64,000 nt of DNA from Blastococcus sp. TBT05-19 (GTDB lineage: Bacteria > Actinomycetota > Actinomycetes > Mycobacteriales > Geodermatophilaceae): positions 1 through 64,000 of the forward strand of contig NZ_QOHI01000008.1 in NCBI RefSeq assembly GCF_003319095.1, given 5' to 3'. Shown here piece by piece: positions 48,783 through 59,080 of this stretch. The notes below the pieces were generated by a model. That model was not told the DNA's origin, ran no database searches, and saw nothing but the letters and a program-made list of their open reading frames with translations. The position numbers were made by a program, and so were the translations under genes. Numbering within the stretch: position 1 is the stretch's first letter; each line of letters begins with the position of its first letter.

Positions 48783-48854
48783 GGTGACCTACTGGAACGG
48801 CCCCCTCCAGGGGCCCACCCTGAGCGTGCGAAGGGTGGGGAGGAGGGGGTCCTT
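48783..48854 (-). repeat. Full copy (A) of the interspersed stem-loop element, downstream of ctaB
   Basis: In ctaB sense the element starts inside the TAA stop (TAAGGACC). CCCCCTCC (48801-48808) pairs with GGAGGGGG (48842-48849) on the plus strand, with TGGAACGGCC (48792-48801) and GAGCGTGCGA (48822-48831) as conserved blocks. No gene in this 78-bp gap. Confidence 0.75.
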
Positions 48855-49785
48855 ACACGATGGCGTCGACGATGATCGCGACCGAGAGCAGCGACAGGTA
48901 CGAGATCGAGACGTGGAACAGCGTCATCGGCCTGAAGTCCCCGCCGCGCTTGATCCGCGCCAGCAGCCGGTGCGACTCCACGACGAACCAGCCGCCCAGC
49001 AGGGCCGCGGGGATCGCGTAGCCCAGCCCGATCCCGTACTCGACGCCGACCGGCCACAGCAGCAGCGAGACGGCCAGGGTCGCCCAGGCCCAGGCCACCG
49101 ACTGGCGCCCGACCGACAGCGCGGTGGTGACCACCGGCAGCATCGGGACGTCGGCCTTCGCGTAGTCGTCCTTGAACCGCAGGGCGAGCGCCCAGAAGTG
49201 CGGCATCTGCCAGCAGAAGACGATCGCGAAGATGACGACGGCGGGCCAGTCCAGCGACCCGGTGACCGCTGCCCAGCCGATGAGGACCGGTGCCGCCCCG
49301 GGCACCCCGCCCCACTCGGTGCTGCGGCGGGTGTGCCGCTTGAACACCATCGTGTAGAGGACGGCGTAGTAGAAGATCGCCGCCGCCGAGAGCGCCGCCG
49401 CGAGCGGGGTCGTCGTGATCAGCAGCAGGACGATCGAGCTGATCGTCAGCACGAACCCGAAGACCAGCGCGGCCCGCGGGGTGACCTCGCCGGTGACCAG
49501 CGGGCGCTTCTGGGTGCGCTGCATCAGCCGGTCGATGTCCCGGTCGAAGTAGCAGTTGAAGACGTTGGCCGCGCCGGCCGCGAACGTGCCCCCGAGCAGC
49601 GTCCAGAACAGCAGCGACAGCGACGGCCAGCCGCGGTCGGCGACCATCATCGCCGGCACCGTGGTGATCAGCAGCAGCTCGATGATGCGCGGCTTGGTGA
49701 GCCCGACGTAGGCGCCGACCCGCGCGCGGAGGCGGGTGGCGAGACGGGGAGCAGGGGCGGCGCTGCGCTCGGTCAGCGCCGTCAC
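48853..49785 (-). CDS. ctaB: Protoheme IX farnesyltransferase (heme O synthase)
   Basis: 310 aa, about nine membrane helices. The prenyltransferase motif NVFNCYFDRDID (74-85) with MQRTQKRPL and the second loop VFCWQMPHFWALALRFKDDY (key D/K residues) are present. It adds a farnesyl group to heme b. The GTG at 49785 is chosen over an ATG 27 codons upstream (49866) because the extra residues look non-conserved, and CGAGGG precedes it; confidence in the start is moderate. Divergent from tkt. Confidence 0.93.
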   Translation of the reverse strand: MTALTERSAAPAPRLATRLRARVGAYVGLTKPRIIELLLITTVPAMMVADRGWPSLSLLFWTLLGGTFAAGAANVFNCYFDRDIDRLMQRTQKRPLVTGEVTPRAALVFGFVLTISSIVLLLITTTPLAAALSAAAIFYYAVLYTMVFKRHTRRSTEWGGVPGAAPVLIGWAAVTGSLDWPAVVIFAIVFCWQMPHFWALALRFKDDYAKADVPMLPVVTTALSVGRQSVAWAWATLAVSLLLWPVGVEYGIGLGYAIPAALLGGWFVVESHRLLARIKRGGDFRPMTLFHVSISYLSLLSVAIIVDAIV

Positions 49786-50062
49786 CGGGTGCCCTCGTGC
49801 GCGGTCGCGCGCGGGCAGCAGGGCACCACGGGATCCCTTCGAACCGGGGGGAGGAACGCCGCCCATGGTAGCCCCGGCCCCCGGCCGAGCCAGGCACGCG
49901 CCATGACCAGCGATGACTAGGGTTGATCGCGTTGCGGCCGCGTGCGCAGCGGGTAGGGGCGACGGCGACGACACCCGTCGCGTCGCACCGCCACGTCCGC
50001 CGGCGGTCGAGCGCCCGTCCCGGGTGCATCGTCAGGCCTACCTCGAGGGAGACACCGACCAG

Positions 50063-52276
50063 ATGGACACGCGCAGCACGGAGGCGGAGGCCCCGGCCGA
50101 GGCCGCGACCGACGCGCCCACCGGAAACCCGGCGCAGCCGCGGCCCACCCTGCCCGAGGGCTTCGGTGACCTGGACCGCCGGGCGATCGACACCGCCCGC
50201 GTCCTGGCGATGGACGCCGTCCAGAAGGTGGGCAACGGCCACCCGGGGACGGCGATGAGCATGGCGCCGACCGCCTACCTGCTCTTCCACAAGTGGCTCA
50301 AGCACGACCCCACCGACCCGCAGTGGACCGCGCGTGACCGGTTCATCCTGTCGATGGGCCACTCGAGCCTGACGCTGTACGTGCAGCTGTTCCTGAACGG
50401 CTACGGCCTCGAGGTCGAGGACCTGCAGGCGCTCCGCACCTGGGGCTCGAAGACCCCGGGGCACCCGGAGGTCAACCACACCCCCGGTGTCGAGACGACG
50501 ACCGGCCCGCTCGGCCAGGGCGTCGGCAACGCGGTCGGCATGGCCATGGCCGCCCGCCGCGAGCGCGGCATGCTCGACCCCGACGCCCCCGAGGGCGAGA
50601 GCCTCTTCGACCACACCATCTGGTGCTTCGCCTCCGACGGCGACCTGGAGGAGGGCGTCAGCGGCGAGGCGTCGTCCCTGGCCGGCACGCAGAAGCTCGG
50701 CAACCTGGTCCTCGTCTACGACGACAACCGCATCTCCATCGAGGACGACACGACCGTCGCCTTCACCGAGGACGTCGGCAAGCGCTACGAGGCCTACGGC
50801 TGGCACGTGCAGCACGTCGCCGACGGCGAGGACCTCGCCTCCGTCGACGCCGCGTTCGCCGCCGCCAAGGCCGAGACCGGGCGTCCCTCGATCATCGTGC
50901 TGCGGACGATCATCGCCTGGCCCGCGCCGAACAAGCAGAACACCGGCGCCTCGCACGGCTCGGCCCTCGGCGACGACGAGGTGCGCGCCACCAAGGAGAT
51001 CCTGGGCTTCGACCCCGAGCGCACCTTCCAGGTCGACGACGACGTGCTGGCCCACGCCCGCTCCGTCGTCGACCGCGGCCGCGAGCTGCGCGCGCGGTGG
51101 GACGAGCAGTTCGCCGCCTGGCAGCAGGCCAACCCCGACGGCGCCGCGCTGCTGGAGCGCATGAGCACCCGCACCCTGCCCGAGGGCTGGGCCGGGAAGC
51201 TGCCGACCTGGGACGCCGACCCCAAGGGCGTCGCCACCCGCAAGGCCTCCGGCGAGGTGCTCGCCGCCGTCTACCCGTCGCTCCCCGAGCTGTGGGGCGG
51301 GTCCGCCGACCTCGCGGAGAGCAACAACACCGCGGTCAAGGGTGAGCCGTCGTTCCTGCCGGCCGACCGCCAGACCAAGATGTGGTCCGGTGGCCCCTAC
51401 GGCCGCACCCTGCACTTCGGCGTCCGCGAGCACGCCATGGGCGCGATCATGAACGGGATCGCGCTGCACGGCGGCACCCGTGTCTACGGCGGCACGTTCC
51501 TGACCTTCTCCGACTACATGCGCGGCGCGGTGCGGCTGGCCGCCCTCATGCAGCTGCCGGTCATCTACGTGTGGACGCACGACTCGATCGGCCTGGGCGA
51601 GGACGGCCCGACGCACCAGCCGATCGAGCACTTCGCGGCGCTGCGGGCCATCCCCGGTCTGGACGTCGTCCGCCCGGCGGACGCCAACGAGGTGGCCGTC
51701 GCGTGGCGGACCATCCTGGAGAACAACGACCGCCCGGCCGGCCTGCTGCTGTCCCGGCAGAACCTCCCGGTGTTCGACCGCTCCTCGTCCGGCTCGGCAG
51801 AGGGCACCGCCCGCGGCGCCTACGTGCTGGCCGAGGCGTCGAACGGCAGCCCCGAGGTGATCCTGCTGGGCACCGGCTCCGAGGTGCAGATCGCCGTGGC
51901 CGCCCGCGAGCGGCTGGAGGCCGACGGCGTCCCGACCCGCGTGGTCTCGGTGCCGTGCGTCGAGTGGTTCGCCGACCAGGACCAGAGCTACAAGGACGAG
52001 GTGCTCCCCCCGACCGTCCGGGCCCGCGTCAGCGTCGAGGCGGGCATCCCCATGGGCTGGCGGGAGTTCGTCGGCGACGCCGGGCGGATCGTCGGCCTCA
52101 CCCACTACGGGGCCAGCGCCGCCTACGGCGTCCTGTACGAGGAGTTCGGCCTCACCGACGAGGCGGTCGTCACCGCCGCCCGCGAGAGCATCGAGGCCGC
52201 CGCCTCGGGCAACGCCGTCCCCGCGGGGCCGGTCGCCGCCACCGGTGGCCTCCCCCACCCCACCGGCGACCGCTGA
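50063..52276 (+). CDS. tkt: Transketolase
   Basis: 737 aa, including a 35-residue Ala/Glu/Pro-rich N-terminal tail. ThDP motif GDLEEGVSGEASSLAG with VYDDNRIS, GHPGTAMSMAP near the start, GLGEDGPTHQPIEH and the C-terminal LGTGSEVQIA are conserved. It moves two-carbon units between sugar phosphates. The ATG at 50063 has GAGGGAG upstream. A TAGGGT (49918-49923) could be the -10, giving a leader of about 130 nt. The gene ends in element B. Confidence 0.96.
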   Translation: MDTRSTEAEAPAEAATDAPTGNPAQPRPTLPEGFGDLDRRAIDTARVLAMDAVQKVGNGHPGTAMSMAPTAYLLFHKWLKHDPTDPQWTARDRFILSMGHSSLTLYVQLFLNGYGLEVEDLQALRTWGSKTPGHPEVNHTPGVETTTGPLGQGVGNAVGMAMAARRERGMLDPDAPEGESLFDHTIWCFASDGDLEEGVSGEASSLAGTQKLGNLVLVYDDNRISIEDDTTVAFTEDVGKRYEAYGWHVQHVADGEDLASVDAAFAAAKAETGRPSIIVLRTIIAWPAPNKQNTGASHGSALGDDEVRATKEILGFDPERTFQVDDDVLAHARSVVDRGRELRARWDEQFAAWQQANPDGAALLERMSTRTLPEGWAGKLPTWDADPKGVATRKASGEVLAAVYPSLPELWGGSADLAESNNTAVKGEPSFLPADRQTKMWSGGPYGRTLHFGVREHAMGAIMNGIALHGGTRVYGGTFLTFSDYMRGAVRLAALMQLPVIYVWTHDSIGLGEDGPTHQPIEHFAALRAIPGLDVVRPADANEVAVAWRTILENNDRPAGLLLSRQNLPVFDRSSSGSAEGTARGAYVLAEASNGSPEVILLGTGSEVQIAVAARERLEADGVPTRVVSVPCVEWFADQDQSYKDEVLPPTVRARVSVEAGIPMGWREFVGDAGRIVGLTHYGASAAYGVLYEEFGLTDEAVVTAARESIEAAASGNAVPAGPVAATGGLPHPTGDR

Positions 52277-52277
52277 C

Positions 52278-58904: not shown

Positions 58905-58959
58905 GTGCGCCCCCTGATCGTCGACCCAGGTTGCGGTGACGCCGATCACCGCGTAGCGG

Positions 58960-58965
58960 AGTCTA
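58960..58965 (-). promoter_or_regulatory. Candidate -10 (TAGACT) of rbpA
   Basis: On the minus strand TAGACT lies 55 bp before the GTG at 58904 and just downstream of element C, so rbpA can be transcribed apart from secG. No clear -35 or sigma-R motif (GGAAT-N18-GTT) was found. Confidence 0.45.
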
Positions 58966-59006
58966 GGGGTACGAGGCGGTTTCTCCGGTCACGATTTCGT
59001 CCCGAC

Positions 59007-59080
59007 GGTGACCGGTTGGAACGGCCCTCCCGCAGGGACCCGCGGCGAGCCTGCGAGCGGTGGGGGGCGGGAGGGCCCTC
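59007..59080 (-). repeat. Full copy (C) of the interspersed stem-loop element, downstream of secG
   Basis: In secG sense it starts inside the TGA stop. GGCCCTCCCGC (59023-59033) pairs perfectly with GCGGGAGGGCC (59067-59077) over 11 bp. Loop block GAGCCTGCGA and outer TGGAACGGCC (59017-59026) match copies A and B. Confidence 0.8.

Follow-up and report, generated by a model that had tools for sequence, protein, structure and literature searches.

Miniature inverted-repeat transposable elements (MITEs) are small, palindromic and non-autonomous, and they occur dispersed over genomes and nested in one another. The attC sites of integrons are hairpins with a variable, covarying stem and fixed unpaired bases; they lie directly behind a stop codon and carry the core GTTRRRY/RYYYAAC. 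Repetitive extragenic palindromes (REPs) are described in the available part of PMC3733652 as sequences of 20-40 bp with the tags GTAG or CGTC, and the TRIT terminators of Mycobacterium (RNIE) are mentioned in the available part of PMC3526491. Here we analyze a hairpin element that recurs behind stop codons in a 64,000-nucleotide stretch of Blastococcus sp. TBT05-19 (contig NZ_QOHI01000008.1, positions 1 to 64,000; this whole stretch is referred to below as the window). Its features suggest a non-autonomous, high-copy mobile palindrome of Geodermatophilaceae, REP-like in kind and moved as a folded hairpin, which matches no described family that could be tested; we put the probability of this reading at about 65%.

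The element shares with MITEs its small size, palindromic form, lack of autonomy, dispersal and nesting, but a constant terminal inverted repeat is not apparent: the stems vary from copy to copy, and the 274 parsed copies have 125 distinct outer-arm pairs, a count that includes register shifts and mutated arms. No clear target-site duplication was seen in four pairs of filled and empty sites, whose spacers differ, and no parent element was found in protein-family searches covering PF01797, PF00078 and PF01548 only. With attC it has in common the variable covarying stem, the fixed unpaired bases and the position directly behind a stop codon; unlike attC, it is dispersed over the genome and not arranged in cassette arrays, and the attC core is absent from its consensus, as judged by eye. 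Like REPs, as portrayed in the available part of PMC3733652, it is a short, high-copy extragenic palindrome that is patchy among relatives, can form RNA hairpins near gene ends and is presumed to be non-autonomous. In contrast to the REPs of that source, it begins with GAAGGACC and ends with GTTCCAGCACGTCACC or GGCCG, without a GTAG or CGTC tag, and it forms a two-storey hairpin of about 57-79 bp. Further differences are the hyper-variable yet covarying stems combined with a nearly fixed loop, the stop codon abutted by most copies, the fossil right halves, and the absence of the Y1 transposase partner of REP/RAYT systems from 57 family genomes. Rfam covariance models gave no match in the window at gathering scores and none at E<=1 in six element loci, in agreement with the original prediction, made from the letters of the window, that no named family fits. 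No description of the element was found among the listed titles and abstract openings of the open-licence literature, a search that barely covered subscription journals.

In the sense of the upstream gene, full copies have the form stop-[N]GAAGG-A-CC(N7)-CC-inner arm-TCGCANGCTC-inner arm-NCCCT-(N7)GG-CC-G-TTCCA-NNNNN-TCACC. On the 5' side of the predicted hairpin, (N)GAAGG and a bulged A precede the outer arm (8-9 bp), which is separated from the inner arm (8 bp) by two unpaired pyrimidines; the loop is TCGCANGCTC. On the 3' side, the unpaired NCCCT stands between the inner and the outer partner, and CC, a single unpaired G, TTCC and the tail ANNNNNTCACC follow. The loop and the segment GGCCGTTCC are nearly fixed across copies, while the stems vary by compensation. 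Copies were collected with a covariance model: 288 of 328 listed matches were taken, weak ones and duplicate window rows being dropped, and 274 of them were parsed. Removal of duplicates and of copies near locus ends left 251 elements for the analysis of placement and 261 for the search for right halves, and 206 distinct gap-free elements were reduced to 113 for covariation by removing near-identical ones.

The compensatory stem changes proposed earlier from the window copies are confirmed by the larger sets. Among 14 copies from the source genome 11 of 22 pairs are altered on both sides, and the covariation score is 0.376, compared with 0.102 in shuffled and at most 0.063 in slid controls. 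In the 113 non-redundant elements the top 11 of 1176 covarying column pairs are predicted base pairs, all 11 of them, and 12 of the 17 helix pairs score above the highest value reached in 20 column shuffles. At inner pair 4 most copies (173 of the 274 parsed) have an A.C mismatch, and thus pairing pressure does not act on every position. The predicted RNA folds of the three full window copies, A, B and C, have energies of -35.2, -25.6 and -37.5 kcal/mol (z = -2.5, -1.7 and -2.3), and with one further copy (n=4) the values range from -25.6 to -39.4 kcal/mol and z from -1.7 to -3.1. Single-sequence folding is only moderately unusual, with 12 of 200 shuffles of copy B folding equally well.

A second subfamily has CTC/GAG/CTC instead of CCC/GGG/CCC at three positions, one of which is the unpaired bulge base (31 versus 207 cases). 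This triple change was considered as an independent sign of a base triple and rejected, since it is mostly confined to one subfamily with a single outer-stem lineage. At inner pair 2, a C-G pair goes with C in the 3' bulge and a T-A pair with T, for example in loci L006 and L210; judging from these sequences, the co-change may represent a pyrimidine base-triple pattern or a GGGNCCC/GAGCCTC palindrome, and it may be a founder effect.

The combined pattern matches exactly at 25 places in the 3.92-Mb source genome, including four identical tandem-repeat units, and the reversed pattern at none. The covariance model built from 14 copies finds at least 117 matches in this genome, at least 113 of them at E<=0.001 (150 candidates scored), some matches being both strands of one palindromic place; the family is therefore larger than was noted at first. 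The original prediction had named three outcomes that would speak against it; instead, further copies were found, the covariation is significant, and the copies are linked to stop codons and have paired stems.

Among 60 genomes (the source genome and 59 relatives) the element is present in 32 of 36 Geodermatophilaceae and in none of the 24 others. A scan of named genomes returned at least 115 loci, and the 80 titles seen are those of Geodermatophilus, Blastococcus, Modestobacter and unclassified Geodermatophilaceae, plus ten foreign loci, which have no covariance-model match and were excluded as chance matches. The titles cover 80 of the 115 loci, and the control genes used below for the terminator and stop-codon backgrounds may include a few from foreign loci. 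A locus from G012, a genome of the same genus, and one of Blastococcus xanthinilyticus (L065 and L158) have the same sequence throughout the stretch compared, which makes Blastococcus the probable genus of the window. In 200 genomes of the order, matches were found in 27 family genomes and in three genomes from two other families (G124, G133 and G208, with one or two matches each); the element is thus almost restricted to Geodermatophilaceae. Contig C17 of G124 (locus L376) shows, at its best-matching stretch, 83-85% identity with ten of the twelve family genomes compared and, over a longer stretch, 74 and 76% with the remaining two; its identity is 68% with its own congener G051 and 71% with another genome of its own family. 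The contig thus resembles Geodermatophilaceae DNA, which points to contamination or recent transfer. Plasmid and phage collections, searched with one 79-base query each, gave no match, and none of five pattern matches in viral contigs was supported by the covariance model.

The predicted association with stop codons is strongly reflected in the placed copies, 178 of 248 of which have a sense stop codon ending -3 to 6 nt from the hairpin (62 of 93 in the source genome and 116 of 155 in other genomes), compared with 83 of 1739 random intergenic placements. The left neighbour is a sense gene in 209 of the 248, and 3 of 251 elements fall inside called genes, versus 16003 of 20000 random places; genes were called by a purpose-written codon-usage script trained on the window, and not by a published gene caller. 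The spacings are discrete (n=178): 4 nt in 88 copies, 2 nt in 28, 1 nt in 18 and 5 nt in 18, and more rarely 0 nt (17), 3 nt (4), -1 nt (4) and 6 nt (1). TGA, which also ends most other genes, is the stop codon for 85 of the 88 copies at spacing 4; TAG accounts for 20 of 28 at spacing 2 and TAA for 9 of 17 at spacing 0, whereas the background usage is 860 TGA, 114 TAG and 21 TAA. The excess of TAG and TAA at these two spacings suggests that the abutting element completes the stop codon from a T with its own 5' end. At three 3' ends of the transketolase gene tkt (L290, L291 and L302) the last codon is AGA or AAA where the element abuts the stop, compared with CGC in most other genomes shown; such codons are unusual in these GC-rich genes and may reflect an element extending into the coding end.

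Occupancy of individual sites differs strongly between relatives. The interval between tkt and the transaldolase gene tal was retained for 30 of 54 matched genomes (the source genome and 29 relatives); it holds a clear element in 11, a left-arm remnant in one, a doubtful diverged copy in one, and none in 17. In a close pair of genomes (about 92% identity in alignments totalling 115 kb), 400 kb contain seven element matches; four of these have both flanks in the partner genome, and the partner is without the element in all four. At three of these polymorphic sites the element stands directly behind a TGA that is retained in both genomes. Match counts within one genus range from 0 (G022), 2 (G011) and 5 (G021) up to at least 79, the counts for high-copy genomes being lower bounds limited by the candidates scored. 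The patchiness at tkt-tal, the four polymorphic sites and this range among congeners together form the signature of a mobile or fast-turning-over element.

A second line of evidence comes from composite loci. Elements nested within elements were observed at L278 and L306 (in one genome), L288, L294 and L297, and full elements are trailed by right halves of other elements, which begin at the loop centre. A search pattern with TCACC and GCTC spaced 0-24 nt apart matches 91 places in 23 of 57 family genomes, some of them repeats of a single tandem unit and thus not independent, and its reversed control matches none; the gap is 1 or 2 nt in 70 of the 91 places, out of 25 allowed lengths. Other places differ in stem along the series, for example L090 of Blastococcus sp. 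DSM 46786, where a full type-I element, a type-II right half, a type-I right half and a partial type-I right half follow one another with different stems. In the set unselected for the junction, a right half downstream was flagged in 18 of 261 elements and a left half upstream in 4 of 261; by eye, one of the 18 is coding, one nested, one a same-stem tandem and one weak. A scan for orphan halves flagged 35 right halves, 22 of them element-like by eye (some full with mismatches, or nested) and 13 coding, and 24 left halves, of which about seven resemble elements, as mutated or nested copies, while the others are coding. A minor class of junctions lies at the 5' internal loop (G094 and G060). Both junction breakpoints are unpaired points of the folded old copy, from which we infer enzymatic cutting at these points.

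These observations can be combined in the following scheme. The folded single strand, and not the stem sequence, would be recognized for mobility, and selection for folding in order to move would produce together the compensatory stems, the conserved bulges and loop, and the fast turnover; the covariation may thus reflect folding needed for movement rather than a host function. New copies would land at gene 3' ends, where they would be tolerated because the element becomes a hairpin in the 3' untranslated region (3'-UTR) and its 5' end (A)GAAGG, abutting the old T, restores a stop codon (TAG, TAA or TGA). At an occupied site the newcomer would replace the old left half up to the loop centre or, less often, only the outer left arm up to the 5' internal loop, so that right halves would accumulate in a row with successive landings. 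Effects on mRNA stability or ribosome release, if there are any, would be secondary. More tentatively, and at odds somewhat below even, we suggest that the agent is an undescribed hairpin-mobilizing system of Geodermatophilaceae, neither Y1 transposase, reverse transcriptase nor IS110, which acts on folded single strands, delivers copies behind stops and replaces the resident left half to the loop centre, leaving the right-half series, and that a C-G-C/T-A-T three-base contact between inner pair 2 and the 3' bulge is part of the fold it recognizes.

If the element is indeed mobile, it is a REP-like sequence with gene ends as its habitat, spreading in the absence of the Y1 transposases to which the movement of REPs is attributed, and its stacked right-half fossils would preserve the order in which insertions arrived at a given site. 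Related species that either have or lack the hairpin behind a given gene offer many natural experiments on how a stable hairpin 0-5 nt behind a stop codon affects termination, mRNA decay and operon expression.

Candidate mobilizers were sought by protein family. The Y1 (HUH) transposase family PF01797 is absent from all 57 family genomes, while the same search was positive in 5 of 14 controls, and a RAYT/Y1 transposase was rejected on this ground. Reverse transcriptase (PF00078) was rejected since the source genome has none; one is present in 6 of 19 genomes, and the 13 without it include high-copy ones. Similarly, IS110 (DEDD) transposases (PF01548) are absent from the source genome and present in 11 of the 19, yet G022, with no element matches, has one, and this candidate was rejected as well. 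Among 424 clustered element-adjacent proteins no transposase was recognized in the 14 largest clusters, judged without a family search. If dnaA is taken to mark the origin and the terminus is placed opposite it, co-orientation with replication applies in two single-contig genomes to 56 of 86 and 41 of 64 listed copies (from totals of at least 106 and 66), with binomial p of 0.007 and 0.03; we see no strong strand preference and judge that ordinary gene bias could produce this one.

Several observations weigh against mobility. No transposase or other mobilizer was found in the three families searched, and the four alignments of filled and empty sites show no clear target-site duplication. One of the four empty sites has no TGA. 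Presence and absence give no direction, and some seemingly empty sites keep short GC-rich spacers that are possible remnants. Some sites are occupied in several genera by elements with different stems, which could also arise by in-situ evolution at functional sites. Tandem duplication from loop to tail explains part of the right-half arrays (L124 and L338, where the stem is the same). Finally, 70 of the 248 placed copies have no called sense stop at -3 to 6 nt, and in 39 the left neighbour is not a sense gene.

The best surviving alternative, which we consider unlikely, is a host-functional 3'-UTR RNA, in which the hairpin shields the 3' ends of mRNAs or delays ribosomes at termination, with the pairing maintained by selection acting gene by gene. 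The sense orientation mostly 0-5 nt from the stop codon, the predicted folds of -25.6 to -39.4 kcal/mol in four copies, the covarying stems and the occupation of identical gene ends in several genera are all compatible with it. Furthermore, the available part of PMC12306157, citing an earlier study, reports that E. coli REPs within 15 nt of the stop codon stall ribosomes, and by analogy the gene upstream of the present element may be affected in a similar way. Against such a role stand the 17 of 30 genomes with no copy at tkt-tal, the genus mates with 0, 2 or 5 copies, the polymorphism of all four comparable sites in the close genome pair, and the persistence of nested and half copies. The original prediction had concluded that compensatory change and a conserved loop indicate a functional structure rather than a plain terminator. 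This functional reading is borne out only in part: a real covarying, stop-adjacent family remains, but the turnover, nesting and right-half fossils fit mobility, and ordinary terminator-like hairpins are still found behind the element. The more specific proposal that the copy between tkt and tal tunes tal expression or stabilizes tkt mRNA finds no support in the form given, as most genomes compared have no copy there.

An unusual family of intrinsic terminators without a U-tract, comparable to the mycobacterial TRIT motif, would account for hairpins immediately behind stop codons, and element 3' ends are somewhat enriched between convergent genes (46 of 106, versus 205 of 615 controls). We regard it as very improbable, since the hairpin is followed by GTTCCA and no U-run, many copies lie within tight gene pairs such as tkt-tal, and ordinary terminator-like hairpins are found behind the element at least as frequently as behind other genes. 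In tandem pairs such a hairpin lies downstream of 12 of 27 element-bearing 3' ends and 80 of 220 others (9 of 27 and 38 of 220 with a stricter score), and in convergent genes downstream of 10 of 21 and 53 of 131, respectively (3 of 21 and 37 of 131 with the stricter score). Element-bearing ends are thus followed by terminator-like hairpins about as often as others, and the element is generally no substitute for a terminator. With TRIT, as it appears in the available part of PMC3526491, the element shares the nature of a covariance-model-defined hairpin at actinobacterial gene 3' ends; compared by description only, it differs in its fast turnover and in the terminator-like hairpins that follow it independently. 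Marginally less probable still is mutation alone, in which template switching within the palindrome copies arm onto arm (quasi-palindrome correction) without selection on folding and ordinary recombination spreads the copies: it fits the many different, mostly well-paired stems and the tandem right-half arrays, but such copying would be expected to remove the bulged A and G, the internal loop of 2/5 nt and the A.C mismatch at inner pair 4, all of which persist, and it leaves the residence behind stop codons unexplained.

In the window itself all four places first noted, three full copies and a short one, are present as described. Copy A (48780..48856, minus strand; exact pattern, model match E 5.6e-16) stands directly after the TAA of ctaB, its 5' end overlapping this stop codon (48853-48855); the host is a UbiA-family gene according to Pfam (48853..49974, minus strand, longest open reading frame). 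Sequence and fold assign its outer 5' arm GG-A-CCCCCTCC, with the bulged A, to 48842..48852 and the outer 3' arm GGAGGGGG-CC to 48799..48808; the conserved apical loop TCGCACGCTC, located by pattern search and parsed copies, occupies 48822..48831, and the tail GTTCCAGTAGGTCACC, matching the consensus, 48783..48798, all on the minus strand. Copy B (52277..52355, plus strand; exact pattern, E 2.0e-19) lies 4 nt after the TGA (52274-52276) of the transketolase gene (tkt, 49913..52276, plus strand, longest open reading frame, Pfam), between it and the transaldolase gene, whose start was taken as 52367. Copy C (59004..59082, minus strand; exact pattern, E 1.3e-16) follows directly after the TGA of secG (59079..59309, minus strand, Pfam SecG) and overlaps it with its 5' end (59079-59081).

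The degraded short copy (40421..40471, minus strand), recognized by sequence, lies 4 nt after the TGA of an Fe-S assembly gene (PF01883 by Pfam; 40471..40935, minus strand). It is a weak match (E = 0.0076 in a model search over 462 kb) and is absent among the matches listed in the whole-genome model search; its position, outer stem and most of its tail are retained, and the inner hairpin is missing, as it is in another copy at C14:383997. Immediately 3' of the short copy a strong GC-rich inverted repeat (40399-40424) looks like the native terminator of the Fe-S assembly gene. Single short blocks within the window alone are weak evidence, and the combined whole-genome pattern is decisive: with at most one mismatch, block TGGAACGGCC has 12 matches in the window, versus 6.3 +/- 2.6 in shuffles, 4 of 100 of which reach 12, and block GAGCNTGCGA has 10, versus 39 in shuffles, and is thus rarer than in shuffled sequence. 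Elsewhere in the source genome, identical 66-bp element units form tandem repeats that close contig C24 (140431-140640) and open contig C18 (1-126); these two contigs are therefore probably neighbours, with the assembly broken within one repeat array.

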